Shown here: positions 851 through 24,640 of the stretch, piece by piece
How positions within the stretch are numbered: position 1 is the first letter of the stretch
How the letters are laid out: the number at the start of each line of letters is the position of its first letter
NCBI GenBank assembly: GCA_030608005.1
Contig: JAUWIX010000008.1
Coordinates: 1-43,568, forward strand
Reading direction: 5' to 3'
DNA from: Dehalococcoidia bacterium
GTDB lineage: Bacteria > Chloroflexota > Dehalococcoidia > Dehalococcoidales > BS750m-G39
DNA length: 43,568 bases
Notes under the pieces: model-generated
What the model saw: the letters and a program-made list of their open reading frames with translations, nothing else
The model's database searches: none
What the model was told of the DNA's origin: nothing
Made by a program: the position numbers and the translations under genes

Positions 851-2476
851 TTAATATTCAGCGCCGCCGCCCCTCCTGCCTACCCAAAAGCCGATGAAAA
901 AGAGCAAGATACCACCCAGCCCCATCAAGGCATATAGAATCCAGCCTGTCAGCTCAAAGACAAAGCCAACATAGAATGTGCCGGCACCAGTCCAATTGCT
1001 GGCATTGGAGGCACCATCTATAGCCTTTACCCTCCAGTAGTAAGGGGTTTCCTCAGTGGTTGACTCAAGCGCTTCCTCTTCAGTGAGGGTATATTCCGAG
1101 ATGGTCAGCCCCGTCTTCTCCAGCACCATGGTGGTGAAATTGGCATTAGAGGCGAGCTGGAGGGTATAGGTTACTGGCTTGCTGGGGTCGCTAACATCCT
1201 TCCAGTCAAAGTAGGCCATTGATGCTGCCTTATCACCCATGAGTGGTAGCAGCGGTGATGGTGTTAGAGGCGGTGTTGACTCCATATAAAAGGTGACCTG
1301 CATACTGCTGGTGCCGTCAGTGGCGGTTATGGTGTGAGCGCCACCCTCGCTGGGAGGCACGGTGAAGGTATAGGAAAAAGAGCCGTCAGCTAAACTGGTA
1401 ATGGTAAACACAACCGGGTCGGAAGTGTAGGTGATGGTTATCGTGGAGCTAGCCTTAAAGCCAGTGCCATTTATAGTTATTTGCGAGCCTACATGACCGG
1501 GTGAAGCCTCGCTAGTAACCGGGCTGATACTGATATTGGTAGTCATGGTGAACTCTGCCTTGGCGGAGTTGTCATCATCCTCTGCCTCAACATCATAGCT
1601 TCCTGGTCCGACACTGGGCACATCAAAGCTAGCCTCAAAGCTGCCATCTTCATCAGTCTCATCTGTCGCCATCTCCTCGCCATCAAAGTAGATGTAAACA
1701 TCAACCTTGTCGCCGAAGCCGGTGCCACTAACGGTTACACTATCACCGACTATGCCTGAAGTGGGGCTGATGGTTATGTCAGGCTCCACAGTGAACTCAG
1801 CCTCGCCCTTCTCCCCACCAAAGTCAGCGGTTATGGTGTGGTCACCGGCGGTGCTTTCGGGGATGTCAATTTTGCAGGTAAATTCACCATCACTATCGGT
1901 CTCATCATTCCCACTGGCTATATCAAGAGTAGCACCATCGTATTCCAGCTTAATACTCTTGTTTTTATCAAAGCCAAGGCCATCAATCTCAACCCTGGTA
2001 CCTACTGGACCCTTTTCAGGTTTAATGGTAATGCCGATAACGGTGAATTCATCAACGGTCAGTATCTTGCCCTCCTTGCTCTCGGTGGTATAGACAAAGT
2101 ATTCACCACCATGTACATCTTCATCTTCATAGCCATCGGTGAGTTCCTCAGGCACCTTGAAATTGGTATCTATATCACCCTCGTCGGGGTCGGTGTCACC
2201 CACATCACCGGCATAGGTTGTTTCTACCTCCTCCCAAACATCAAGGTCGTCATCAATATAATCGTCCTTGTCGGCTTCCTGGCTGGAGAAGTAGATATAG
2301 ACCTTATGAGCAGTGGTATAGCCAGAGCCAGTAACATCAATCGTGTCACCGATTTCACCCTCATCAGGACTGAGATGGAGCGACTCTGCCAGGGCTGGTG
2401 TAGCCGGTATGACCATCACCAGCAGGGAAAGGATAATGGCAAGAGCCAGAGTACGGAAAACCTTATTGTATTTCAA
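851..2476 (-). CDS. Secreted, membrane-anchored IPT/TIG-repeat protein
   Basis: A 541-residue extracytoplasmic protein. Residues 1-30 form a Sec signal peptide (basic start, hydrophobic core, ALA cleavage motif). About four IPT/TIG immunoglobulin-like domains follow (roughly 33-145, 150-230, 231-312, 314-395), each opening with a pattern such as ITISPTSGIVGDSVTVSGTG. Residues 396-500 resemble a fibronectin III-like module with YYWRV. A hydrophobic segment near 507-529 ends in a short GRRGGG tail, which would anchor the C-terminus in the membrane. The domains are acidic, as expected for a surface protein. The start is TTG with GGAGG upstream. A role in surface architecture or adhesion is inferred from domain type only. 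Confidence 0.8.
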   Translation of the reverse strand: MKYNKVFRTLALAIILSLLVMVIPATPALAESLHLSPDEGEIGDTIDVTGSGYTTAHKVYIYFSSQEADKDDYIDDDLDVWEEVETTYAGDVGDTDPDEGDIDTNFKVPEELTDGYEDEDVHGGEYFVYTTESKEGKILTVDEFTVIGITIKPEKGPVGTRVEIDGLGFDKNKSIKLEYDGATLDIASGNDETDSDGEFTCKIDIPESTAGDHTITADFGGEKGEAEFTVEPDITISPTSGIVGDSVTVSGTGFGDKVDVYIYFDGEEMATDETDEDGSFEASFDVPSVGPGSYDVEAEDDDNSAKAEFTMTTNISISPVTSEASPGHVGSQITINGTGFKASSTITITYTSDPVVFTITSLADGSFSYTFTVPPSEGGAHTITATDGTSSMQVTFYMESTPPLTPSPLLPLMGDKAASMAYFDWKDVSDPSKPVTYTLQLASNANFTTMVLEKTGLTISEYTLTEEEALESTTEETPYYWRVKAIDGASNASNWTGAGTFYVGFVFELTGWILYALMGLGGILLFFIGFWVGRRGGGAEY

Positions 2477-2549: not shown

Positions 2550-2940
2550 TACCGTGTACTCGTTCAATACCTTAGTGACACCTCAACTTTCTGCACCTCA
2601 CCCCCTTAGACATTTACTTAGCAACCCACCCTCTTTAAGCACCCAGAAAAATCGAAGATTTTTCTGGGAACCCGCTTTGTCCCCCTCCCTTACAAAGGGA
2701 GGGGGAAATTGGTTATATAAGAGAGGCTTCGCCTCTCTTGGACTCTCCTTTTTGCTCCTCTCCATAATAGGGAAATGTATTCTTAGCATGAGGGCGAGGA
2801 ATAAAAAAGAGGGGGCGAAGCCCCCTCTTAAAACTACTTCCCCCTTCCCCTCTAGGGGAAGGGGGTCAGGGGGATAGGGTCAATGCCACAGAGAAACGAA
2901 ACATGATAATCTGTGTCACCTATCTATCTGAACTAGCTCA
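2545..2940. repeat. Left repeat cluster R2 with terminal inverted repeat
   Basis: The inner 60 bp (2881-2940) match the reverse complement of 12101-12160 at 56/60 positions, and similarity continues to about 2796. Outward come the palindromes at 2807-2829 (GCGAAGC loop), 2719-2739 and 2642-2668 (CCCAGAAAAATC arms), then the end module that meets the IPT promoter. This fills most of the gene-free stretch 2477-3024. A T-tract next to 2807-2829 reads on the minus strand, so it could stop transcription leaving the virus-like cassette leftward. Confidence 0.75.
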
Positions 2941-2966
2941 TACCATCAAAATACGACAAAATACTG

Positions 2967-2998
2967 TTGACTATAATAGAACATATGTGCTAATGTTC
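2967..2998 (+). promoter_or_regulatory. Candidate promoter and operator of the virus-like operon
   Basis: TTGACT (2967-2972), 18 bp and TAATGT (2991-2996) form a plausible promoter. An inverted repeat, GAACAT (2979-2984) and ATGTTC (2993-2998), overlaps the spacer and -10 and could be an operator. Neither half matches a LexA box well enough to call SOS control. Confidence 0.45.
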
Positions 2999-3024
2999 CA
3001 TCGCATCGTTTAGAGAGGTAAGCT

Positions 3025-3393
3025 ATGAGTCTGAATAAGGGTAAGCTGGATTTACCACCGGAGTATTGCCGCTATCGGGATGATGGATGCGAATTTGCCG
3101 ACTCCTGCCTTAACTGCCCGTTTCCGGAATGTATTTATGCCCAGCCTGGGGGCAAGCAATGTTGGCTGAAGAGGTTGAGAGACAAAGAGGTATTAAGGCT
3201 GTTCACCACCCAGGGTAAAGGGGTGAAGGAGCTGGCATTGATGTTCGGCGTTAGTCAGCGCACCATCCAGCGGATATTAAAGAATTATTCAACCCCACCC
3301 CCCGTGACTCCCTCTTCTCAACCCTCCAAGAGAAAAAATATAAAAACGGGGGCGAAGTCTCTCTTAGACACCCCGAATGTTGAGCCACAATAA
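3025..3393 (+). CDS. Cys-rich helix-turn-helix protein opening the virus-like operon
   Basis: A 122-residue protein with an N-terminal cysteine cluster (C15, C22, C28, C31, C36, C46) that could bind zinc. A helix-turn-helix follows at about residues 66-88 (GVKELALMFGVSQRTIQRIL), of the Sigma70-r4/Homeodomain-like kind. The last ~34 residues are Pro/Ser/Lys-rich and overlap a copy of the genomic palindromic repeat (3348-3365), so this tail is probably repeat-derived. Its place just before the portal is where phages keep a small terminase, also an HTH protein. That and a transcription-factor role are both possible. A good AGAGGT ribosome site precedes the ATG. Confidence 0.6.
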   Translation: MSLNKGKLDLPPEYCRYRDDGCEFADSCLNCPFPECIYAQPGGKQCWLKRLRDKEVLRLFTTQGKGVKELALMFGVSQRTIQRILKNYSTPPPVTPSSQPSKRKNIKTGAKSLLDTPNVEPQ

Positions 3394-3405
3394 AGGAGAC
3401 TAAAA

Positions 3406-4827
3406 ATGAATAAAACTTCTATTATCTCGCAGCTAAACCGCCATGATATAGAGCGGCTCAGGGGGTATAGAGAGCTACTTGACTTCTACCACGGTCGGCA
3501 GTGGGAAGGTAGGGAAAGGCGAGGGGAGAAACGCCTGACCTTCAACTATGCCAAGGTGTTCATAGATAAGGTCGCTTCATATCTAATGTCTGGCATTAAC
3601 TTTGCTGTGGAAGCTGTGGAGGATTCAGAGGAGGCTAAAGCCAGAGCCCAGAGAGCGGAGGCAGCCTTACACCAGGTTTATGAGGATAATAATCTGGAGC
3701 AGCTTGACCTTGAGACTGAGATAGATTGCGCTATCCTGGGCGATGCCTGCTATAAGGTGAGCTGGGATGCGGAGACAAAGAGGGTGAGGATTACCGCCCC
3801 CGATGTTCAAGGCATCTATGCCTGGTGGCTGGGGGATGATACCTCAAGAATATGGAGAGTAGCCTCAAAATACAGCCTAACCGCTGAAGAAACCGAGTTC
3901 CTGTATCGGGTGAAGCCTAAGGATAAGAAGGCGACCATTGTTGAGCTATGGACAGACGGGGAATTTGAGCTTTACCTGGATGATGCCCTGATTGAGAAAA
4001 AGCCCAATCCCTACGGTTTTATCCCGTTTATCATCTACCCTAACCTTAGAGAGCCAAAGAAGTTCTGGGGTATATCTGATTTGTCACAGATTATGGAGTC
4101 GCAGCGGGAGCTTAATCGGGCGATGTCGCAGCTATCCAGGATATTAGAGCTATCGGGCAATCCTATCGCCGTGCTGGAGAATGTGGAAGAATCTGAGGAT
4201 ATTGCGGTTAAGCCGGGGGCGGTGTGGACTATCCCCGAGGATGCCAAAGCCTATCTGCTTGACCTACTACAGGGTGGCGGGGTCAGGCTGCATATAGATT
4301 ATATCAATCTACTATATAGAACCCTGCATGATATAGCTGAATCTCCCCGGGCTGCCTTTGGTGGAACAGAGAGGGACTTATCGGGGGTAGCTCTTGAGAT
4401 TGAGCTTAACCCGCTACTTCAGAAGGTGAGACGAAAGAGGATTATCAGAACCGCTGTCTATAACCAGAGAAACAAGATGCTCCTTAAGCTCATGGAGAGG
4501 TACCGGGGTGAGAGGTTTGGCGATAACCGGTTACGGGTAATATGGAGTCCGATACTGCCTCAGGATTTAGCCAGGCTGGTTTCTAACGAGCAGACACTGG
4601 TTCAGACCGGTATCCACTCCAGGCGTAGGGCTATGGATGAGATGGGTATTAAAGAGCCAGAAAATGAGTTTAAGCGGTGGCTGGAGGAGAGGGAGGCTAT
4701 CCTCAGGATGAATAAGGAGCTTAGTTCACCCAGAGGGAACCCGCTTAACGCCAGGTCAACGAGAGGCAGAGAGGGGGAGAGAGCTTTAGCCACGGGGACT
4801 GAGGGCGTTGAGGAATCTTTGTCATAA
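3406..4827 (+). CDS. Phage portal protein (SPP1 gp6-like)
   Basis: 473 residues, the normal length for the SPP1-type portal family. Such proteins form the dodecameric ring at one capsid vertex through which DNA passes. The opening (YHGRQWEG, then NYAKVFIDKVASYLMSG at about residues 45-65), the central GFIPFIIYPN segment with GISDL, and the later IAESPRAAFGG/LSGVALEIEL region (about 305-330) follow the family pattern. The C-terminus is polar and low in complexity. AAAGGAG precedes the ATG. The small HTH gene ends 12 bp upstream and the scaffold gene starts 12 bp downstream. The usual upstream neighbour, the large terminase, is absent. Confidence 0.85.
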   Translation: MNKTSIISQLNRHDIERLRGYRELLDFYHGRQWEGRERRGEKRLTFNYAKVFIDKVASYLMSGINFAVEAVEDSEEAKARAQRAEAALHQVYEDNNLEQLDLETEIDCAILGDACYKVSWDAETKRVRITAPDVQGIYAWWLGDDTSRIWRVASKYSLTAEETEFLYRVKPKDKKATIVELWTDGEFELYLDDALIEKKPNPYGFIPFIIYPNLREPKKFWGISDLSQIMESQRELNRAMSQLSRILELSGNPIAVLENVEESEDIAVKPGAVWTIPEDAKAYLLDLLQGGGVRLHIDYINLLYRTLHDIAESPRAAFGGTERDLSGVALEIELNPLLQKVRRKRIIRTAVYNQRNKMLLKLMERYRGERFGDNRLRVIWSPILPQDLARLVSNEQTLVQTGIHSRRRAMDEMGIKEPENEFKRWLEEREAILRMNKELSSPRGNPLNARSTRGREGERALATGTEGVEESLS

Positions 4828-4839
4828 GGAGGATGAAAA

Positions 4840-5334
4840 TTGCCCAATAATAATGAGCAAAACCAAAATCCCAACGGGGAGGAGCTAGAGAGTTCCAGGG
4901 TTGTTGAGCTTGAGGGGTTAATAGCCGAGAAAGATGAGGGGCTTGCTTCCAAGGACTTGCACATCTCTGAGCTAGAGCAGGCTATAGCTGATAGGGATAG
5001 CCAAATTGCTGCCCTCAAGCAATCTTTGGCTGAGTTAGACCAGAGGTTGACCGACCTCGATAATAGTCGAGCTCAGGCGGTATCAAGCTACCGGGCTCTG
5101 GTAGTCGAATCAAACCCTGGGATGCCCGAGGAGCTGATAGCCGGGGATAGCATTGAGGCTATTGATAGGTCGGTGGCAGATGCCCAGACCCTGGTGGACA
5201 AGGTGAGGAAGGAATTGGAGGCTGAGATAGCGGGGGCTAGGGTGCCGGCTGGGGCTCCACAGAGGACACCACTAGACCTCTCAGCCCTATCCCCACGGGA
5301 GAAGATTCAATACGCAATAGGAGAAAGGAGATAA
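4840..5334 (+). CDS. Capsid scaffolding protein
   Basis: 164 residues. An acidic start leads into a predicted coiled coil (about residues 15-75, heptad-rich with Leu/Ile and Glu/Lys), then a C-terminal region with LSALSPREKIQYAIGERR. That organisation, the size and the position between portal and major capsid fit phage scaffolds, which shape the procapsid and bind the capsid protein through their C-terminus. The start is TTG, chosen because AGGAGG lies 7 bp upstream and the nearby ATG frame stops after a few codons. No maturation protease gene is seen that would remove it. Confidence 0.7.
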   Translation: MPNNNEQNQNPNGEELESSRVVELEGLIAEKDEGLASKDLHISELEQAIADRDSQIAALKQSLAELDQRLTDLDNSRAQAVSSYRALVVESNPGMPEELIAGDSIEAIDRSVADAQTLVDKVRKELEAEIAGARVPAGAPQRTPLDLSALSPREKIQYAIGERR

Positions 5335-5337
5335 ACA

Positions 5338-6258
5338 ATGGCTTTAACACTAGACGAGGCAGCTAAGCTGTCAACTGATATGCTACTTCAAGGGGTGGTG
5401 GAGACCATAGTCAAGGACTCGCCTATCCTTCAGCGACTACCCTTCATTGAGATTGTAGGCAATGGCTTGACCTATAACCAGGAAAAGACCTTGCCTACCA
5501 TCGATTTCTATGATGTTGGTGATACCTGGGCTGAATCGACACCAACATTTGAGCAGAAAACGGCAAACCTGAAGATTATGGGTGGTGATGCCGATGTTGA
5601 TAACTTCCTCAAGGCGACCCGAAGTAATCTCCAGGATTTAGAAGCAGCCGTGGTCGAGCTGAAGGCTAAGGCGCTGAGGGACAAGTTTGAGGAAGGCTTC
5701 ATCTATGGCGATTCTTCAGCTAACGCCAAGCAGTTTGATGGTCTCAGGAAGCTCATTGATGCCACCACTGCCAGCGACCAGGTAATAGCCATGGGGGCTA
5801 CTGGGGCTACCCTTACTCTGGCTAAGCTGGACGAGCTTATTGACGCAGTAAAGGGTGGTAAGCCGTATATTCTGCTTATGAGCCGACGCTCCAGGCGGAA
5901 AATAAATGCCTTAGTTAGGGCTGCCGGTGGAATGATAGAGAGCGATAGAGACAAGTGGGGTAACTTCGTCCAGCTGTGGGATAGCATCCCCATTGGTGTC
6001 AATGACTGGATACTGGATACCCATGTCCTTACCGCTGGTGCGGAGACAGCAACCACCGGAGGCACTTGCTCCACTATCTATGCCTTCCAGATGGGGGAAG
6101 GGGCTCTATGTGGCTTAACCAGCCCTGGTCACCTAACCGTGGAGCCTATCGGCTCGCTGGAGACCAAGGACGCATCACGAACCCGCATTAAGTGGTACTG
6201 CTCACTGGCTCTGTTCAGCTCAATTAAGGCAGCCGCTTTAATCGGGGTTAAAGACTAA
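5338..6258 (+). CDS. Major capsid protein (HK97-fold family)
   Basis: 306 residues. The opening LDEAAKLSTDMLLQGVVETI, the segments FIEIVGNGLTYNQEK and WAESTPTFEQ, the central LRDKFEEGFIYGD (about 115-127) with GLRKLID, and the closing region with VEPIGSLETKDASRTRIKWYCSLALFS follow the pattern of HK97-fold major capsid proteins of small tailed phages. It starts 3 bp after the scaffold stop with AAGGAG upstream, so the two are probably coupled. No HK97-style protease domain or delta domain is visible. A perfect palindrome follows the gene and may adjust read-through to the genes below. Confidence 0.8.
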   Translation: MALTLDEAAKLSTDMLLQGVVETIVKDSPILQRLPFIEIVGNGLTYNQEKTLPTIDFYDVGDTWAESTPTFEQKTANLKIMGGDADVDNFLKATRSNLQDLEAAVVELKAKALRDKFEEGFIYGDSSANAKQFDGLRKLIDATTASDQVIAMGATGATLTLAKLDELIDAVKGGKPYILLMSRRSRRKINALVRAAGGMIESDRDKWGNFVQLWDSIPIGVNDWILDTHVLTAGAETATTGGTCSTIYAFQMGEGALCGLTSPGHLTVEPIGSLETKDASRTRIKWYCSLALFSSIKAAALIGVKD

Positions 6259-6270
6259 AATCAGCGATTT

Positions 6271-6300
6271 TTTTGGGAGCCTCCTAGGAGGCTCCCAAAA
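6271..6300 (+). terminator. Perfect 30-bp palindrome after the capsid gene
   Basis: Positions 6271-6285 are the exact reverse complement of 6286-6300, with no loop and no mismatch. T runs precede it and AAAA closes it, followed at once by the GGAG ribosome site of the next gene. It could be a partial terminator or an mRNA-protecting hairpin that keeps capsid mRNA more abundant than downstream mRNA. Confidence 0.6.
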
Positions 6301-6310
6301 GGAGAGAAAA

Positions 6311-6826
6311 ATGGAAAGCAAAGATGTAGCTCGATGGATTTGTTACTACAAGCTCAGTAAATACCACCAGGACATTGAGCCCTATCGTGGTTCAGAGCAA
6401 GCCTTCTATGACCGGTTCAAGCCTTATGAGGTGATTGAGGGCGAGGGTAATTGCCTGCTTAATGTTGGCATTGGTGAGATGTGGGACTTGATTACCGGGG
6501 AAGTCTCCGGGGCTGACCATATCTTCGATAGTTCCCACGCCCAGATTGGTGTTGGTGATTCCAATACTGCTGCCGATGCCACCCAGACGGATTTACAGGC
6601 AGCCACCAATAAAACCTATAAGGGTATGGAAACTGGCTATCCTACCTCTGCCGCACAAAAGGTGACCTTTAAGGCTAGCTTCGGTGATAGCGAAGCTAAC
6701 TATGCCTGGAATGAATGGGTGGTGAAGCAATCCACCAGCGGCAAATGCCTCAATAGAAAGGTTGACTCTCTGGGCACAAAATCAAGTGGCACCTGGACTT
6801 TGGAAGTTAATATCACTTTGAGCTAG
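6311..6826 (+). CDS. Phage structural protein, head or tail accessory
   Basis: 171 residues, soluble, no signal peptide. The first ~55 residues contain a short helical, Tyr-rich segment (WICYYKLSKYHQDIEPY). The rest is a beta-rich domain with QIGVGDSNTAADATQTDLQA and a closing SLGTKSSGTWTLEVNITLS. These patterns recur in minor structural proteins of tailed phages, so a virion role (decoration, adaptor or fibre base) is likely, but no exact function can be assigned. The AGGAGA-type ribosome site lies at the 3' edge of the palindrome that follows the capsid gene. Confidence 0.55.
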   Translation: MESKDVARWICYYKLSKYHQDIEPYRGSEQAFYDRFKPYEVIEGEGNCLLNVGIGEMWDLITGEVSGADHIFDSSHAQIGVGDSNTAADATQTDLQAATNKTYKGMETGYPTSAAQKVTFKASFGDSEANYAWNEWVVKQSTSGKCLNRKVDSLGTKSSGTWTLEVNITLS

Positions 6827-6837
6827 CGAGGCAAGCG

Positions 6838-7134
6838 ATGAACCAAGTAACAGGCTCAAAGATTCTAGAAGGGCGTAAGGCGGTTGATGCTTATCGGGAA
6901 GCCCACCGCCAACTTCACAGCAAGCCTTGGCATAGGGGCATACCTGAAGAGCATACGCCGTTGCTGAATAAGCTGCTGGCTGAACTCAAGAAGCAAGGGG
7001 TTAATTCGCTAGCCGAGTTTTTTGATGCTAGCGAGGAACTAAATGCTAAGGAGCTTGGCTTTACCTCGAGGAATGATTTTGAGGCTAGAGCCACCGAAGC
7101 TGATAGAGAAGCCCTGGATAGGATGTGGCACTAA
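6838..7134 (+). CDS. Small helical protein of the virus-like operon, unknown
   Basis: 98 residues, mostly charged and predicted helical, with no cysteine and no membrane segment. I recognise no family. It sits between two structural genes, 11 bp after the first, and its TAA overlaps the ATG of the next gene (TAATG), which suggests translational coupling. A small structural or assembly role is inferred from position alone. Confidence 0.5.
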   Translation: MNQVTGSKILEGRKAVDAYREAHRQLHSKPWHRGIPEEHTPLLNKLLAELKKQGVNSLAEFFDASEELNAKELGFTSRNDFEARATEADREALDRMWH

Positions 7135-7997
7135 TGGCGACTGAAACATTAAGACCAAATGCTGCTGGTGATGAGGAAAATATACCCACTGTCGTTGGTG
7201 ATGGGGTCGGCGCTCATTACACAACAGTAGATGAGGAAACACCCGATGAAGATACTTCTTATGTTGGTTCTGGATATGCTGATGACACTTGGTATCGTGA
7301 CCTCTACAATGTAGCAGGCCACAGTGAAGGCAGTGGCACTATAAACCATATTAAGGTCTATGCCCGTTGTTATACTCCCACTGCTAGTCCTGTCCAGGCA
7401 GGTCTCAAAATCGCTATCAAATCAGGCACGGGAACAGGTGACCCCGATACAGTTGATGAAGGTTCTGAGGAAGGACTAACCAACAGCTATGCGGATTATT
7501 TTAACCAGTGGAGCACAAATCCTGCCACTGGCAGCGCTTGGACTTGGGATGAAATAGATAAATTGCAGATTGGTATTAGCCTAAGACGGACAAAAGATAG
7601 CTCTTGGGGGAAAAGTCGTTGCACCCAGGTCTATGTTGAGGTTGATTATACGGCGGTAACGTCAAAGACCTCATCTGATGCTGGCTCTGGCGTTGATGCC
7701 CTTTATTCACTGGAAACCCCGGAAGCTAAGTCATCATCTGATACTGGTTCTGGCATAGAGGGTGCGCCCGTGCAGAGCGCTGCCCTAATCGGCAATGAAA
7801 CCGGCTCTGGTATTGAAGCCCTTGTTGCCCGGCTGTTAGCCGCCGTTGACACCGGCTATGGTGTTGAAGCAGGTAATGTTGAAATAGAGGGTCTGCTCAA
7901 GGACCTGTTTGCCAGTGAACTGGGACTGGGCTCAGATTCCCTTATAGCCAAGATAGAAACACCAACCAAGGGGGGAGGTATGAAATTATGGAACTAA
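7134..7997 (+). CDS. Minor virion protein with beta-domain and GSG repeats
   Basis: 287 residues from the ATG overlapping the previous stop; an ATG at 7125 is possible. Residues ~1-175 form a beta-sandwich-like domain with a typical close (SAWTWDEIDKLQIGISLR, then CTQVYVEVDYTAV), seen in tail-fibre and decoration proteins. Residues ~180-255 hold about four degenerate repeats of the form D(A/T)GSG(V/I)(D/E)A, each 20-25 residues apart. The last 20 residues overlap the next gene by 10 bp. A surface or fibre function is likely; the binding partner cannot be told from sequence. Confidence 0.55.
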   Translation: MATETLRPNAAGDEENIPTVVGDGVGAHYTTVDEETPDEDTSYVGSGYADDTWYRDLYNVAGHSEGSGTINHIKVYARCYTPTASPVQAGLKIAIKSGTGTGDPDTVDEGSEEGLTNSYADYFNQWSTNPATGSAWTWDEIDKLQIGISLRRTKDSSWGKSRCTQVYVEVDYTAVTSKTSSDAGSGVDALYSLETPEAKSSSDTGSGIEGAPVQSAALIGNETGSGIEALVARLLAAVDTGYGVEAGNVEIEGLLKDLFASELGLGSDSLIAKIETPTKGGGMKLWN

Positions 7998-8581
7998 ACA
8001 CTATGAGAACCATAATCAGGCGTGACCTGAAGGATGAAGACCCGGGGAACTACCGCTGGAGCGATGAGGAATTGGACAGGCACATCGCCCACACTGTCAG
8101 GGAGTTTTCTGAGGCGGTTCCCTTGCCAGCAAAGGCTATCCTGCCTACCACTCCAGGCTCCAGGGTGATTGATATATCCTCCCTGACCGATAGGGTTATG
8201 GTGGAGACGGTGGAGTATCCGATGGACAAGTTCCCGCCCTGCTACCAGAGGTTCGCTCTATGGGGGCATGTCCTAACCCTGTTTGGCGATGAAGTACCTG
8301 ACGGCTCTAACTGCAATGTCTATTATGGCATTCTACATACGCTTGATGCTGAGGGGTCTACTATCCCTACCAAGCACGAGGACCTGGTGGCTACCGGCGC
8401 CGAGGGCTATGCCGTTATAGAGTGGGCTAACTATGCCATTAATAGAGTCAGCGTCGGCGGCACCGGAACCCCAAGGGAGTTCCTCACCTGGGGCAATGAG
8501 AGGCTAAAGCAATTTAGGAGCGAGCTGAAGAGGCTGGGGAGAAGAAACCGAGTCAGAATTCGTCAGCTCTATAGACAGTAA
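7988..8581 (+). CDS. Head-tail connector-like protein
   Basis: 197 residues. The opening (RTIIRRDLKDEDPGNYRWSD followed by EELDRHIAHTVREFSEA) is characteristic of a phage connector/adaptor group with a helical bundle like gp6 of HK97, which attaches to the portal ring. The middle holds VIEWANYAINR, and the C-terminus is strongly basic (ERLKQFRSELKRLGRRNRVR), suited to contact nucleic acid or an acidic partner. It may start at 7988 or at the ATG at 8003. It overlaps the upstream gene by 10 bp. The virion role is likely and the exact place in the neck is inferred. Confidence 0.6.
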   Translation: MELNTMRTIIRRDLKDEDPGNYRWSDEELDRHIAHTVREFSEAVPLPAKAILPTTPGSRVIDISSLTDRVMVETVEYPMDKFPPCYQRFALWGHVLTLFGDEVPDGSNCNVYYGILHTLDAEGSTIPTKHEDLVATGAEGYAVIEWANYAINRVSVGGTGTPREFLTWGNERLKQFRSELKRLGRRNRVRIRQLYRQ

Positions 8582-8589
8582 GGGAGGCT

Positions 8590-8922
8590 ATGATGACAGT
8601 GAAAGAAGCACTAGCTAAGACCAAAGAGGGCTTGCCTAAGGAGGCGTTTGCCATCGTCGGTAACCCTGATGACCCTGATACCTGGAAGCTGCCCCATCAT
8701 AAGAAAAGCATCTTTAGAGCCCTGAAGGGGAAGCTTGATATTGAAAAGACGGTTGACTGGGAGAGGATGCCAGCGGCGGTGGCTGCCCTCTCCCCGGGTG
8801 GTTACCGGGGGCAGAGGGTTGATGCCAGCCCAGAGGAGCTCCTCAAGGCAGCCAGACACCTGGCAAACCACTACCGCAAGGCAGATAAGCCATTGCCTGA
8901 TACCCTGGCAGCATTGGTGTAA
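8590..8922 (+). CDS. Small phage-type protein with a DPDTWKLPHH motif
   Basis: 110 residues. The motif NPDDPDTWKLPHHKK (about residues 25-39) and the later ALSPGGYRGQRV and AARHLANHYRKA are typical of a short domain found in phage head proteins, often beside or fused to prohead proteases. No protease active site is present here. It lies between connector and holin-like genes, 8 bp after the connector stop, with AGGGAGG upstream. Assignment to virion assembly is by pattern and position. Confidence 0.5.
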   Translation: MMTVKEALAKTKEGLPKEAFAIVGNPDDPDTWKLPHHKKSIFRALKGKLDIEKTVDWERMPAAVAALSPGGYRGQRVDASPEELLKAARHLANHYRKADKPLPDTLAALV

Positions 8923-8928
8923 ACGAAA

Positions 8929-9114
8929 ATGAAAGAGTGGATAGAGTTTATAAAAGCTACCATCAGACCCTTTATCATTGTCTGGGGGTTCTTAGTCTAT
9001 GGTGTCTGCATTATGTCTGGCGTGGAAGTGCCTGCACTTCTAGTCGGATTGGTCTCTGCGGTCATCATAGAATACTTTGGCGAAAGAGCCATCAAGAGGT
9101 TCAAGGAAAAATGA
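8929..9114 (+). CDS. Small two-helix membrane protein, holin-like
   Basis: 61 residues with two hydrophobic stretches (about 12-30 and 34-50) and a basic C-terminal tail (ERAIKRFKEK). This matches the layout of small class II/III holins, which make holes in the cytoplasmic membrane at the end of a lytic cycle. No endolysin is encoded nearby, and the host may lack peptidoglycan, so a holin could be enough for release. The stop overlaps the hub start (ATGA at 9111-9114). Any small membrane protein could look like this, so the holin role is inferred. Confidence 0.5.
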   Translation: MKEWIEFIKATIRPFIIVWGFLVYGVCIMSGVEVPALLVGLVSAVIIEYFGERAIKRFKEK

Positions 9115-11114
9115 GACAACTTAGTTCAACATTGCTTGCCGCCCAGAAAGAGGCTACCCATACTCCCTATGTCAAGGTGGAAGCCTCAAATAAGCACGCC
9201 GGGGCAGTCAACCTGCGGTGGGCAAGGCTCTATACCGGCTCGGAAGACGATTACTTTCACGCCGTGACCATGCCTGAGGATGGCTCCCTAATCAGGGTCA
9301 GGGTAACACCCACATCTGATTCCAGAAAGCTCTATCGCCAGAGGGTAGCTGACCCCAACCCAGAATCCGATTTCAGCCAGTGGGTCTACACCAACCAGTA
9401 TGATGTGGTTATTGTGGCTTGCTGCTCTCTAGGGGCTGAGGTCTCCGTCTTCTGGATTAACAGTGACCGGAAGCTCTACCAGCTAAAGAGCACCGACTAC
9501 GGGGTCGGCTGGGGAAGCCCTGAGCTCTTGGGCTATACCCCAACCACAGCCATTAATGGCATAGCTGCCAACTATAAGCCAAATGGCGATGTAGCCCTTT
9601 TCTTCGCTGACCAGGCGACCCTCTATGTGATGAAGTGCATAAATGGTAGCTGGGGTGATAGGGCTGCCTGGGACAAGTCAACCGGCGACCTGTCAGGCGT
9701 AGCCACAGTTTATAGTGGCGATTGGAACCTGTTTGTTACCGGGAAGGATGCTGATGGCGATTTTAAGCTGTGGTCATTGGTTTACGGCGATGGTGAGGAT
9801 GTAGCTGCTGGCACCTGGTCAGAGCTGAAGGAGTTTGCCTCAGCCCCATCAGATGGCAACTTTGAATACCGCGCAGCATTTATGGATAAGCCCGATGTCG
9901 AGCGCTGCTTCTTTGTTGAGAGGTTCACCGGAAGCAAGTCTTACGACCGCCCCTTCTGGTCACATTCGGCCTCGGATACCAAGTTTATTGATAATCTGTG
10001 GCATGAGCCGGTGCCTTTTAATCTTTCCAGCGAGTATGGCATGGCTATCGCCCACCATAGCCAATATTGCTGGCTATCTGCCCCCTATGGCGTGTGGCGA
10101 GCCAAGCTGACCCCGGGGAGCCTGGATTTAACCGCCGATGTCCTGTCATTGAGGCAGGGGCTCACTGGAACCAAAGGTGACCTTGCAGTTGAGCTAAGAA
10201 ACGATGATGGGAGGTATTCTTCGCCGGGGCAAGGAGACCTGTCAGCCCTTGACATTGGTTGTCAGTTGGAGTTCAGCCCTGGCTATGTTACCTCTCAAGG
10301 AAACGAGGTCAGCCCTGGTCAAGCCTTTACCCTCAATGCCTATGAGCATGCAAGCTCCGGCGGTAAGGCTAGCCTGGTTCTCCATGCCTCAGATGGCTGG
10401 AGCCTGATGGAAAACTGGAGAGCCAGACATCAGTTCCGATGGAACAAGGAAAGCGATGAGATGAGCGTAAAACAAATCCTCAAGTTCGTGCTGGCCAGGG
10501 TTGGGCTGAAGCTTGAGGTGAAATCCCAGTCATCGGTTGTAACTGGCTACTATCCCGATTTCACCATCAACCCCAATAATACCGGAGATACGGTTATCAG
10601 GAGGCTGCTATCGTTCGTCCCCGATGTTCTATTCATTGAGGGCAACAAAGCCTATATAGTAAATCCCTTATCCTCCGACGGCTCTGATTACTCCTATGGT
10701 TCATCTCATCCCCTAGTTGAGGGCAGGTATAGGATAAGAGCCCGGGGTTTCAACCGAATCCAGGTCGAGGGCTACGACCCAGCAGAGAGTGAGACAATAG
10801 TAGTTGATTCCTTCACCTGGGACGAAATAGATAGGCTCTATGATAGGCTGAGGCAGCTTGAAGACAAGAATATAGATACTGTAACCAAAGCTGAGCAGAT
10901 GGGAGAAGCCTATTTAAGACAGGCGGAGATAGAATCAGTCAATGGCTCTATCCTGACCCCGGTTAATTGTGGTCAGCAGCTATATGATGTCATTGATATA
11001 ACCGATAGCCGGGCAGGGCTGGAAGCAGCCAAGAGGAGGGTAAGCGGGCTAACCCTGGTTTATAGTCCACGCAGTGGAGAGTATCGGCAGCGGTTATTGC
11101 TAGGGGGAGTATAG
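9111..11114 (+). CDS. Tail hub protein with N-terminal propeller-like region
   Basis: 667 residues, translationally coupled to the holin-like gene by ATGA; an earlier ATG in frame would overlap that gene entirely. Residues ~70-330 contain repeated Trp/Gly/Asp-rich strands (GDVALFFAD, SGDWNLFVTGKDADGDFKLW) suggesting a beta-propeller. Residues ~345-667 resemble hub proteins of the gp27/gpD type: LRQGLTGTKGDLAVELRNDD, a long middle with LKFVLARVGLKLEV and PDVLFIEGNKAYI, and a conserved-looking end (GLTLVYSPRSGEYRQRLLLGG). A propeller fused to a hub could join receptor binding to the injection device. No tube, sheath or tape-measure gene accompanies it, which is unusual. Confidence 0.55.
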   Translation: MRQLSSTLLAAQKEATHTPYVKVEASNKHAGAVNLRWARLYTGSEDDYFHAVTMPEDGSLIRVRVTPTSDSRKLYRQRVADPNPESDFSQWVYTNQYDVVIVACCSLGAEVSVFWINSDRKLYQLKSTDYGVGWGSPELLGYTPTTAINGIAANYKPNGDVALFFADQATLYVMKCINGSWGDRAAWDKSTGDLSGVATVYSGDWNLFVTGKDADGDFKLWSLVYGDGEDVAAGTWSELKEFASAPSDGNFEYRAAFMDKPDVERCFFVERFTGSKSYDRPFWSHSASDTKFIDNLWHEPVPFNLSSEYGMAIAHHSQYCWLSAPYGVWRAKLTPGSLDLTADVLSLRQGLTGTKGDLAVELRNDDGRYSSPGQGDLSALDIGCQLEFSPGYVTSQGNEVSPGQAFTLNAYEHASSGGKASLVLHASDGWSLMENWRARHQFRWNKESDEMSVKQILKFVLARVGLKLEVKSQSSVVTGYYPDFTINPNNTGDTVIRRLLSFVPDVLFIEGNKAYIVNPLSSDGSDYSYGSSHPLVEGRYRIRARGFNRIQVEGYDPAESETIVVDSFTWDEIDRLYDRLRQLEDKNIDTVTKAEQMGEAYLRQAEIESVNGSILTPVNCGQQLYDVIDITDSRAGLEAAKRRVSGLTLVYSPRSGEYRQRLLLGGV

Positions 11115-11117
11115 GGA

Positions 11118-11345
11118 TTGTTTATCTACCTCACCCCCTTTAAGCACCCAGAAAAATCTTCGATTTTCCTGGGAACCCGCTTTATTCCCCTCTCCATAAT
11201 AGGGAGATGTATTCTTAACATGAGGGGGAAGTATAGGTTTTGAAGGGGATTTTAGGGGGACGAAGTCCCTCTTCAGAAAAAATCTTCCCCTTCCCCTTAT
11301 CAAGGGGAAGGGGATAAAGCGGGTAGGGTTATAAGAATATTTGAA
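11118..11345. repeat. Palindromic repeat cluster R3
   Basis: It separates the hub gene from the small gene behind it and fills the gene-free stretch 11115-11360. From the left it holds a CCCAGAAAAATC palindrome, a unit with CTCTCCATAATAGGGAGATG (like 2757-2793), a degenerate GGGGGACGAAGTCCC unit and a CCCCTTCCCCTT palindrome. The order differs from R2, so modules have been shuffled. Confidence 0.7.
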
Positions 11346-11360
11346 GGAGGTCTGGAGGAA

Positions 11361-11573
11361 ATGAGGCTGAGGAAAGCGGTGCTAAAGAGTTTCAACTCCG
11401 GCGACTATACTGCCACCGTCCAACTTGCTGGCAGCTACAAGGTTTACCTGGAAGGTATTGCTGTGGCGCGGAATCTGCCAGCGGCCGAGATGGCACTGGG
11501 CAGAAAGGTGGCGGTCATATTCTTTGATGAGCACAACGCCAAGGATGCGGTGGTGGTGGCAGTCTATACCTAG
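11361..11573 (+). CDS. Short OB-fold-like protein of the virus-like cassette
   Basis: 70 residues, predicted all-beta, opening MRLRKAVLKSFNSGDYTATV and closing with hydrophobic strands (AVIFFDEHNAKDAVVVAVYT). A small beta-barrel that follows a hub gene fits the OB-fold core of baseplate spike/gpV-type proteins, which cap the hub. The tip and beta-helix of a full spike are missing, so it could only be a hub-cap or an unrelated small beta protein. AAGGAGGT precedes the ATG. It is separated from the hub gene by repeat cluster R3, so the repeat probably entered the operon later. Confidence 0.5.
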   Translation: MRLRKAVLKSFNSGDYTATVQLAGSYKVYLEGIAVARNLPAAEMALGRKVAVIFFDEHNAKDAVVVAVYT

Positions 11574-11589
11574 AGGCTCATTTTTTTGC

Positions 11590-11973
11590 TCAGGCTCTAG
11601 ACAGTAGTTTTAACATAGTAAGGATGGCGATAACAGTCCGCTGAACCTCAACCGGCTCCCGGGCTAACACACCAGCCACATAAGGGTCTATTTGCCCATC
11701 AGTATGCCCTTGGTCAGTCTCAGCTTTGTCAACAGACTGAGGAGATAGGTAGCCGGCTAAAGTAAACAGCTCATCCTCCTCAAAGCCCAGGGGTTTGGCG
11801 ATTCTGCGCAGAACGCGAGCTGATGGGAAACGCTCCCCCCGCTCGATGCGACCCAGGTGGGAGGGGGATACCCCTGACATAGTAGCCAGCTCCTGCTGTG
11901 TCAGTGGCTTGATAACCCTTTGCCGCCTGATTATCCCGCCTAAATTGGTGCCATTTCTGTCAAGCATAACCAT
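11590..11973 (-). CDS. XRE-family transcriptional regulator beside the virus-like cassette
   Basis: 127 residues, convergent to the virion operon. Residues ~20-75 form a Cro/CI-type HTH (QQELATMSGVSPSHLGRIER, then the GERFPS and GFEEDE patches). The C-terminal third (DPYVAGVLAREPVEVQRTVIAILTMLK) is shared with the regulator at 33829, so the two are close paralogues. The gene starts at 11973 (or Met at 11967) with AGGAGG about 8 bp upstream. Inverted repeats in its 5' region (AAGTT at 12010-12014, AACTT at 12020-12024) could be an operator. Control of the cassette or of itself is inferred. Confidence 0.8.
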   Translation of the reverse strand: MVMLDRNGTNLGGIIRRQRVIKPLTQQELATMSGVSPSHLGRIERGERFPSARVLRRIAKPLGFEEDELFTLAGYLSPQSVDKAETDQGHTDGQIDPYVAGVLAREPVEVQRTVIAILTMLKLLSRA

Positions 11974-12100
11974 ATAATTTGCCTCCTGACAAGTTCTTTA
12001 CAGGAAGTAAAGTTGTTTTAACTTCCCTACAGTCCAATTTTAGGCTACCGAGATTAATTACCCATAAAACTGGCGTTAACATTTCATTAAAACCCATCCC

Positions 12101-12335
12101 TGAGCTAGTTCAGATAGATAGGTGACGCAGATTATCATGTTTCGTTTCTCCGCAGCATTGACCCCATCCCCCTGACCCCCTTCCCCTCTAGGGGAAGGGG
12201 GAAATAGTTTTAAGAGGGGGCGAAGCCCCCTCTTTTTTATTCCTCCCCCTCGCCTAGAAGGAGAGGGGGACTAAGGGGGTGAGGTGTAGAAAGTTGAGGT
12301 GTCACTAATCATATGAACGAGTACAGTTCCTTGAC
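12101..12335. repeat. Right repeat cluster R4 with terminal inverted repeat
   Basis: Positions 12101-12160 pair with 2881-2940 in inverted orientation. Next come the CCCCTCTAGGGG palindrome (about 12176-12202) and the GCGAAGC hairpin (12211-12233) followed by a T-tract on the plus strand, a good intrinsic terminator for transcription leaving the cassette rightward. The outer end reaches the -35 box of the FAD-protein gene. Bases 11974-12100, between the XRE start and this cluster, hold only the possible operator. Confidence 0.75.
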
Positions 12336-12359
12336 GACCAAAGCTATGGGTTATACAAT
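12331..12359 (+). promoter_or_regulatory. Promoter of the FAD-dependent dehydrogenase gene
   Basis: TTGACG (12331-12336), a 17-bp spacer and TACAAT (12354-12359). It begins where repeat cluster R4 ends. Transcription would start near 12366, just before the likely ATG at 12376. Confidence 0.6.
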
Positions 12360-12375
12360 GGCATGGCTAGCAAAA

Positions 12376-13767
12376 ATGAACAAGAAATACGATGTTATCA
12401 TCGTTGGCGGTGGTCCAGCAGGTGTTTTTGCCGCCATGGAACTGTCTCAGGCTTCTAACCTAGATATTCTGCTTATAGAAAAGGGGAAGGACATTGATAA
12501 GCGTCGATGCCCGGCTCAAGACACAGGTAATGCTTGCCCTCCATGCTCACCTTGCAATCTGGTCTGTGGTTTGGGCGGGGCTGGCGCTTTCAGTGATGGT
12601 AAGCTAACCCTATCATCGCAGGTTGGCGGTAGGCTCAGCAATTACCTGGGGGAGAGTGATGCTGAAGCCCTTATCAGCTATGTTGATGAAGTATACCTCA
12701 AGTTTGGCGCTCCAGATAAGCTATATGGCATTGGGGAGGGAGTTGATGAACTGCGTGGTAAGGCTGACCTGGCTGGATTGAGGCTGGTACCGATGCCTAT
12801 CCGGCACTTAGGCACTGAGCATTGTCGCTCTGTGCTTAAGGCTATGTGGGATTACCTTAGCCCACATATAGAATTCAGGCTTGAGACAGCGGTTTCCACT
12901 ATCACTGTTGACAAGGGCGAGGTTAAGGGAATTAAAACTGATGCCGAGGATAGCTTTGACTGTCGTTACCTAATTCTGGCTCCGGGTAGGGAGGGGGCGG
13001 ATTGGTTATCCAAAGAAGCTGACCGACTCAATCTAACCATGTATAGTAACCCTATTGATGTGGGGGTTAGGGTTGAAGTGCCAGTGGCAGTAATGGAGGA
13101 GCTGACTGATGTGCTCTATGAGTCAAAGCTGGAGTTCCTGTCAAAGAGCTTTGACGACCGGGTTAGAACCTTCTGTATGTGTCCCGGGGGTGAGGTCATC
13201 ATGGAGTCTACCGGTGGTTGTGACCCGGTAATCACGGTTAACGGGCATAGCTATGCCGACCGTAGAACTGGCAACACTAATTTTGCCCTGTTGGTGAGCA
13301 CGACTTTCACCAAGCCTTTTAACCAGCCCATTGCCTACGGCAAATATCTGGCCAGGCTAGCTAATATTCTCAGCGGTGGGGTTCTAGTGCAACGCCTTGG
13401 TGACCTGATGGAGGGTCGGCGCTCTACCCCAGCCCGCATTGAGCGGGGGTTAACTCAACCTACCTTGAAGAATGCTACCCCCGGCGACCTCAGCTTCGCC
13501 CTTCCCTATCGTTACCTCACCGGGATAGTGGAGATGCTCCAGGCAATGGATAAGCTGGCTCCGGGTGTTGCTTCACGCCATACCTTGCTTTACGGGATAG
13601 AGGTCAAATTCTACTCTTGCCGACCTCAACTCAGCCCCAGCCTGGAGACCGAGGTCAGCAACATGTTTGCTGTTGGTGATGGAGCTGGCGTTAGCCGTGG
13701 CTTAATCCAGGCATCAGCTTCTGGTGTGGTGGCAGCTCGTGAGATATTGAGGAGAAGCAGACATTAA
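12376..13767 (+). CDS. FAD-dependent dehydrogenase (COG2509-like)
   Basis: 463 residues from ATG 12376; upstream ATGs at 12313 and 12358 lie within or right at the promoter, so they are less likely. A Rossmann FAD-binding motif is at the N-terminus (YDVIIVGGGPAG, then LLIEKG), followed by a Cys-rich patch (CPAQ, CPPCSPCNLVCG) and GLGGAGAFSDGK, both typical of the uncharacterised COG2509 dehydrogenases. The C-terminus has the closing FAD contact (FAVGDGAGVSRGLIQASASG). The Cys patch could be a redox or metal site. It is a cytoplasmic flavoprotein; the substrate is unknown. Its position next to the virus-like cassette shows no functional link. Confidence 0.8.
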   Translation: MNKKYDVIIVGGGPAGVFAAMELSQASNLDILLIEKGKDIDKRRCPAQDTGNACPPCSPCNLVCGLGGAGAFSDGKLTLSSQVGGRLSNYLGESDAEALISYVDEVYLKFGAPDKLYGIGEGVDELRGKADLAGLRLVPMPIRHLGTEHCRSVLKAMWDYLSPHIEFRLETAVSTITVDKGEVKGIKTDAEDSFDCRYLILAPGREGADWLSKEADRLNLTMYSNPIDVGVRVEVPVAVMEELTDVLYESKLEFLSKSFDDRVRTFCMCPGGEVIMESTGGCDPVITVNGHSYADRRTGNTNFALLVSTTFTKPFNQPIAYGKYLARLANILSGGVLVQRLGDLMEGRRSTPARIERGLTQPTLKNATPGDLSFALPYRYLTGIVEMLQAMDKLAPGVASRHTLLYGIEVKFYSCRPQLSPSLETEVSNMFAVGDGAGVSRGLIQASASGVVAAREILRRSRH

Positions 13768-24404: not shown

Positions 24405-24640
24405 TAGCACCCCATCCCCCTGACCCCCTTCCCCTCTAGGGGAAGGGGGAAGTAGTTTTAAGAGGGGGGCTTCGCCCCCCTCTTTTTTACTCCTCCCCCT
24501 CTCCTTTTAAGGAGAAGAACAAAAAAGAAGAGTCAAAGAGAGGCGAAGCCTCTCTTACATAATCATCCCCCTCCCTTACCAAGGGAGGGGGATAAAGGGG
24601 GAGGGTTACCTTAATGAAACTAATAATGGGGGTGAGGTTA
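24405..24640. repeat. Palindromic repeat cluster R6
   Basis: Carries the CCCCTCTAGGGG palindrome and the AGGGGGGCTTCGCCCCCC hairpin with T-tract (about 24410-24489), the AGAGAGGCGAAGCCTCTCT unit (near 24538-24556) and a CCCTCCCTTACCAAGGGAGGG palindrome (24568-24594). It shares the inner modules with R2 and R4 but lacks their 60-bp inner terminal sequence. This is the gene-free stretch between ftsZ and nrdR. Confidence 0.7.

Follow-up and report, generated by a model that had tools for sequence, protein, structure and literature searches.

The gene transfer agents (GTAs) that have been studied in detail are mostly alphaproteobacterial (PMC12946183). In RcGTA, BaGTA, and CcGTA of the Alphaproteobacteria, domesticated phage head and terminase genes are combined with vertical descent, purifying selection, and the absence of an integrase. 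The loci of known GTAs may be hundreds of kb apart (reviewed in PMC11841831). A GTA-like element outside the Alphaproteobacteria, FpGTA of Faecalibacterium prausnitzii, is probably podovirus-like and is encoded by two separate loci (PMC12946183). Here we describe an operon in a stretch of 43,568 nucleotides of DNA from a Dehalococcoidia bacterium; this stretch, hereafter called the window, is an entire contig (C25) of a 38-contig draft genome (1.12-Mb assembly, 87% complete). Dehalococcoidia are a class of soil, sediment, and groundwater bacteria. The operon, referred to as the cassette, occupies positions 3025-11573 on the plus strand as a single block in which every frame is open. It is likely, from the comparison with related genomes, that the cassette encodes the head and hub of a GTA-like system of Dehalococcoidia that is domesticated, inherited vertically, and without a recognizable tail tube.

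The locus shares several features with RcGTA, BaGTA, and CcGTA: phage-derived head genes (capsid, portal, and adaptor) are intact in the host chromosome, the structural genes are under purifying selection (ratios of nonsynonymous to synonymous substitutions, dN/dS, of 0.10-0.28), no integrase or excision module is present at the locus, and the same genomes encode a large terminase (TerL) with intact ATPase and nuclease motifs, the last feature being found for the system and not in the assembly of the window. It differs from them in the families of its capsid, portal, and terminase and in belonging to another phylum, and, unlike in the RcGTA type, a protease, a tape measure, and a tail tube were not recognized in the cassette of the window, whose genes do not make up the RcGTA complement. 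FpGTA has proteomic and packaged-DNA evidence (PMC12946183), whereas the Dehalococcoidia locus is known through comparative genomics only. Among phages, Meyran and Phishy of Gordonia, which are of the epsilon15 gp7/SU10 type, have capsid proteins 38-40% identical to that of the cassette over the full length and have an SU10-like adaptor in common with it. In contrast to the cassette, however, phages of this type are complete replicating phages of at least 41 kb, and the hub and spike of the cassette, unlike theirs, resemble the hubs of myoviruses and contractile systems. The portal of the cassette is only ~25% identical to the nearest phage portal in our collection.

The genes of the cassette are listed below. 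The dN/dS values given here and elsewhere are pairwise NG86 estimates with 0.1 < dS < 1, from pairs that are not independent of each other and include metagenomic fragments.

3025-3393, plus strand: opening gene of the operon, encoding a helix-turn-helix (HTH) protein whose N-terminus is Cys-rich (HTH_23, E = 1.1e-5; phrog_836, late activator, E = 5.9e-7)
3406-4827, plus strand: portal protein (SPP1_portal, E = 3.6e-28; phrog_64, E = 4.4e-41; dN/dS ~0.13)
4840-5334, plus strand: scaffold-like coiled-coil protein preceding the capsid gene (weak matches to Phage_scaffold and phrog_233; dN/dS ~0.28)
5338-6258, plus strand: major capsid protein, epsilon15 gp7/SU10-like (NCBIfam NF045672, E = 3.9e-60; phrog_212, E = 4.9e-70)
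6311-6826, plus strand: accessory structural protein kept in part of the order (phrog_23653, E = 2.4e-43; dN/dS ~0.14), possibly with a role in capsid decoration
6838-7134, plus strand: small lineage-specific gene present in a few close relatives only
7125-7997, plus strand: variable protein (matches to phrog_2448 and phrog_14065), possibly with a surface or fiber role
7988-8581, plus strand: head adaptor, SU10-type (weak match to SU10_adaptor, E = 5e-4), found at 73 of 80 loci
8590-8922, plus strand: conserved accessory protein of 110 aa without a match to any known family (proteins of close relatives 74-86% identical; dN/dS ~0.17)
8929-9114, plus strand: small hydrophobic transmembrane protein of 61 aa, holin-like (weak match only)
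9111-11114 (start approximate), plus strand: tail hub, predicted to have an N-terminal beta-propeller and a C-terminal hub of the gp27/gp44 type (AlphaFold pLDDT 93)
11361-11573, plus strand: predicted OB-fold spike-type protein of 70 aa (AlphaFold pLDDT 92)

An open reading frame (ORF) check and the profile searches confirmed these genes at the places, on the strand, and in the open state in which the sequence-only reading had reported them. The searches also recognized no terminase, integrase, tape measure, tail tube, sheath, or lysin at 2.9-12.1 kb, as had been claimed, but a missing profile match is weak evidence because the terminase itself was missed in this way.

The structural genes of the cassette are under strong purifying selection. 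The median dN/dS was 0.10 for the capsid, 0.13 for the portal, 0.15 for the adaptor, 0.17 for the hub, 0.14-0.17 for most of the others, and 0.28 for the scaffold; for comparison, it was 0.115 for the housekeeping gene yqeY and 0.46 for a neighboring gene encoding a TIG-repeat protein. Protein distances were correlated with those of rpoB (rho for capsid, 0.86; portal, 0.86; TerL, 0.75; adaptor, 0.74; hub, 0.79; all Mantel p ≤ 0.0005), and the correlations with rpoB stayed significant without the deepest group. The median ratio of capsid to rpoB distances was 0.80, that is, the capsid diverges more slowly than rpoB. In the tree built from capsid and portal, 14 of the 15 well-supported rpoB splits recurred, and 15 of 22 splits were shared with the rpoB tree, compared with a mean of 0.26 when the taxa were shuffled. 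This congruence with rpoB, together with the shared flanks, indicates vertical inheritance with the host.

The core gene order was kept at 76 of the 80 named loci surveyed, which are labelled Dehalococcoidia or Chloroflexi nearly throughout, and at nearly all internal loci each of portal, capsid, adaptor, and spike is encoded by one undivided ORF. The flanking genes for an FAD-dependent oxidoreductase (FADox), YqeY, and a radical SAM protein recur in different families, and the cassette thus occupies a fixed chromosomal site. In one class-level relative (L363), the whole unit, in the order TerS (small terminase), TerL, HTH, portal, scaffold, capsid, adaptor, hub, and spike, is contained in 7.7 kb, with no room for a protease, tape measure, or tail tube; genes for transaldolase and MeaB flank this unit, and it is followed by FADox and YqeY genes, the same pair as in the window. 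In many genomes TerS and TerL are apart from the rest of the unit, and in other classes of Chloroflexota the capsid, scaffold, portal, adaptor, and TerL occur in scrambled order.

The sequence-only reading had regarded a remnant prophage as the simpler alternative, i.e., an ordinary prophage in decay that had lost its integrase, terminase, and tail genes. This would agree with the lack of recognized integrase, replication, and tail-tube genes at the locus and with true decay at the homologous YqeY/radical SAM site of Dehalococcoides-like genomes, where the portal is truncated and the hub partial, TerL and TerS remain, and the capsid gene is absent, or where TerL and TerS are all that is left. 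However, decay does not fit the intact members, in which dN/dS is 0.10-0.28 across the structural genes, the order is kept at 76 of the 80 loci, the phylogeny follows rpoB, and the same genes are found class-wide in different families. A remnant is already contradicted by purifying selection across families, and we consider this explanation unlikely, although it is the best placed of the alternatives. We also rejected the idea that Dehalococcoides was without the system from the outset, since decayed pieces remain. A complete prophage at this site, or relaxed selection with random loss in relatives, had been named in advance as what would speak against a domesticated system, and neither was found on checking: no integrase lies near the locus, selection is strong, the order is stable, and the trees are congruent with those of the hosts.

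The search for the terminase showed why it had been missed. The Pfam terminase families PF03354 and PF03237 gave no true match, phrog_2 gave strong matches in G044 and G049 only, and standard terminase families gave nothing in three complete chromosomes or the genome of the window. The TerL of the Dehalococcoidia cassette is too divergent for such searches, and the negatives were therefore false. In class-level relatives, a gene with TerL motifs was found by its position, immediately preceding those for HTH and portal; with a profile made from these proteins, the TerL of order-level relatives was recovered, on the strand of the cassette and beyond one or more opposite-strand TIG genes. G001, G003, and G004, which are close relatives, have TerL and TerS on the strand of the cassette, a few kb beyond the TIG gene. 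The survey covered 29 genomes, 25 of which contained TerL, and TerL was present in 20 of the 23 that have a capsid gene. The nuclease residues D281, D361, and HDD are conserved over 27 members that represent several classes of the phylum, as are the Walker A (RQGGKNE in most) and Walker B (LLExDExQD in most) motifs; the nuclease part matches solved terminase nucleases in the PDB, and the protein also matches TerL PHROGs. TerL is usually preceded by a TerS-like gene, whose product of 109-135 aa is without a Pfam match and matches TerS PHROGs only (phrog_1889); a small terminase without a detectable DNA-binding domain has been noted for known GTAs (PMC11841831). The HTH gene sits between TerL and the portal in compact relatives and directly after TerL at L363, L240, L147, and L149; L240 has TerS, TerL, HTH, portal, scaffold, and capsid genes without a TIG gene.

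The description of the cassette as terminase-less is thus correct for the contig and not for the system. The contig ends ~0.85 kb beyond the TIG gene, on the side where close relatives carry TerS and TerL, and because of this and of the 87% completeness of the assembly, the terminase-less state of the window is most likely a contig-end effect; the TerL and TerS of this organism would most likely lie just past the contig end or in the unassembled 13% of the genome. In single-contig genomes the distance from TerL to the capsid gene ranged from 9 kb to ~0.8 Mb, comparable to the separation of known GTA loci, and the suggestion of an undescribed, domesticated, gene-transfer-like system with its terminase elsewhere was borne out to this extent in complete chromosomes. 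In the complete chromosome G062, TerL is divided into two briefly overlapping pieces located far apart (L311, 9902-10666; L312, 9442-10227), and the hub and the adaptor are also split.

Other suggestions of the sequence-only reading were an empty or DNA-free particle and an injection device. The corresponding explanation is a DNA-free nanocompartment or injection device in which the capsid genes now work without a terminase. The genomes in which TerL and TerS were not found by the profile searches (G000, which is that of the window, G019, and G063) would fit this idea, as would two loci (L261, 9600-11144; L262, 9042-10570) at which only capsid and scaffold were recognized, amid ordinary genes. 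In contrast, TerL with intact catalytic motifs is present in 20 of the 23 capsid-bearing genomes, including the genome of L261 (G146), where it is on another contig, and a strongly constrained portal makes little sense without DNA packaging. The portal of the L261 and L262 genomes may be elsewhere or too divergent. An encapsulin-type nanocompartment has an HK97-type shell without a portal or terminase, whereas here the portal is conserved and TerL co-occurs. The conservation of both portal and TerL therefore disfavors a DNA-free particle, which appears improbable, somewhat more so than a remnant.

The weakest explanation, a capsid-forming phage satellite (similar to cf-PICI) or a widespread family of active Dehalococcoidia prophages, could account for a locus that has head genes and a terminase but no tail module and for the many 4-12 kb pieces filed as viral contigs in IMG/VR, but it is very unlikely given the absence of an integrase beside the cassette, the conserved chromosomal flanks, the usual single copy, a nearest phage capsid only ~40% identical, and the congruence with rpoB, vertical descent already disfavoring it. 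In nine single-contig genomes, no integrase or large serine recombinase was found less than 25 kb from the capsid gene, the nearest being 25 to 214 kb away; the satellite integrase and regulatory module of a cf-PICI, and the own integrase, att sites, and sporadic distribution of a prophage, were likewise not seen. The serine-recombinase elements that are inserted in the capsid genes of other genomes are separate from the cassette.

A domesticated GTA-like system is thus the reading that we retain, and several observations count against it. The searches recovered neither TerL nor TerS from the assembly of the window, from G019, or from the complete chromosome G063. No lysin, replication, tape-measure, or tube gene was recognized in the cassette, in searches that covered this locus and not whole genomes. 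The capsid gene was found in 28 of the 61 nearest relatives and in 169 of 393 Dehalococcoidia genomes (112 of 226 genera), usually as one full-length copy without stops, so that a capsid match is lacking in more than half of the sampled genomes of the class; this is explained by incomplete metagenome-assembled genomes, most of the compared genomes being drafts, and by real losses. The capsid was lost in Dehalococcoides-like genomes, and the capsid or TerL gene is interrupted in several genomes. DNA packaging and transfer by a particle are inferred here.

Insertions recur in the capsid gene at a site that corresponds to positions 5470-5482 of the window (capsid codons 45-48). Different large serine recombinases abut capsid stubs cut at one codon (..LTYN^QE..) in G001, G008, and L134, and downstream halves of the capsid gene occur in other genomes. 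Such loci include L079 (8367-10017), L080 (1931-3725), L134 (2031-10876), L131, L133, L138, and L141. As long as such an element stays in place, the capsid gene would be silent. In G184 (L250, 7341-9559), the operon is interrupted by two transposase-like ORFs between the scaffold and the capsid. The capsid profile had no sequence match in the PDB. The product of 7125-7997 is 51-63% identical in close relatives, compared with ~80% for the neighboring products.

Since neither the hub nor the 70-aa protein had a useful sequence match, both were folded from alignments. The Foldseek matches of the hub model, whose gene is joined to the transmembrane protein gene by an ATGA overlap, included Mu gp44 (1wru) and the hubs of VgrG, PVC, and AFP, and its propeller matched a PLL lectin (5c9o). 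The top matches of the 70-aa model were P2 gpV (3qr8) and the Mu baseplate spike (9ki1_V), with the R2 pyocin spike (4s37) lower down; only phage-spike matches and the gene position were used as evidence for this protein because the structural search also returns unrelated OB folds (e.g., proteasome ATPases). The predicted folds of the hub C-terminus and the 70-aa protein are thus matched by Mu gp44/gp45, P2 gpV, VgrG, and contractile injection systems. Unlike those assemblies, the cassette has no recognized tube or sheath gene, its hub carries an N-terminal beta-propeller, and the hub is linked to head and portal genes. In five Dehalogenimonas-like genomes (L248, L250, L251, L253, and L254), the end of the hub is encoded in a frame of its own that overlaps the first, which suggests a shared gene fission or frameshift and not random decay.

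The neighboring features of the window are as follows.

851-2476, minus strand: TIG/IPT-repeat surface protein, a neighbor at many loci (TIG, E = 2.9e-18; dN/dS 0.46)
2790-2940, plus strand: left copy of a dispersed 151-bp intergenic repeat
11593-11973, minus strand: XRE-family regulator facing the cassette, in the same position in several relatives (HTH_3, E = 4e-13)
12101-12251, minus strand: right, inverted copy of the 151-bp repeat
12313-13767, plus strand: FADox, a housekeeping flank common to relatives including the compact locus L363
14345-14803, plus strand: YqeY, a housekeeping flank common to relatives including Dehalococcoides-like genomes

The TIG-repeat surface protein, whose gene separates the cassette from TerL in close relatives, is a conserved yet fast-evolving neighbor, often present in two or more copies, and might be a receptor or release factor. 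The 60-bp inverted repeats that were thought to bound the block (2881-2940 and 12101-12160) are indeed 56/60 identical, but their role as a boundary was not upheld. The arms extend to a 151-bp match of 92% (2790-2940 and 12101-12251), and this repeat has 71 matches spread over many contigs of the assembly; no fewer than 12 of these are nearly full length and ≥86% identical. Two nearby copies in opposite orientation are expected of a repeat so dispersed and therefore define no element boundary; the repeats were rejected as element ends or att sites for this reason. The repeat is palindrome-rich and intergenic, with a further stretch in the window at 24409-24501.

If the cassette works as a GTA, portal, scaffold, and capsid would build a small icosahedral head, and TerL with TerS would load this head through the portal with chromosomal DNA until no more fits (headful packaging). 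The adaptor, the propeller-hub, and the OB spike would close the head directly, with no recognizable tail tube, and the beta-propeller, a fold common to fucose-binding lectins, may bind the surface of the recipient. The HTH and XRE proteins would limit particle production. The compact TerS-to-spike unit is probably ancestral. Long retention of the cassette by the whole class suggests its use as a gene transfer agent. More tentatively, and with considerable doubt, the locus could be a functional, ancient GTA of Dehalococcoidia and perhaps of much of Chloroflexota, with a minimal head without a tail tube, a lectin-propeller hub and OB spike, a terminase at a separate locus, a capsid more conserved than RNA polymerase beta and switched off by serine-recombinase elements, and a possible part as carrier of reductive-dehalogenase islands. 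In a literature search that left most subscription papers out of reach, no description of a GTA of Dehalococcoidia or Chloroflexota was found.

A packaging locus passed down vertically across the whole of Dehalococcoidia would extend the known GTAs to another phylum and to a very small architecture, and it would offer a case in which tighter constraint on a capsid protein than on RNA polymerase can be measured. Many contigs of 4-12 kb that IMG/VR lists as viral (L161-L240) are pieces of the cassette locus, some with TIG or FADox host neighbors; host loci of this type are thus being filed as viruses in metagenomic virus databases. The cassette and the terminase are carried by complete genomes of what we take to be Dehalogenimonas isolates, in which particles can be sought directly. 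Although the vinyl chloride reductase islands of Dehalococcoides are mobile, they have no transfer genes, and it has been proposed that their carrier is encoded by the host or by a phage (PMC3146451). If our hypothesis is true, a GTA-like particle could be this unknown carrier of reductive-dehalogenase islands.

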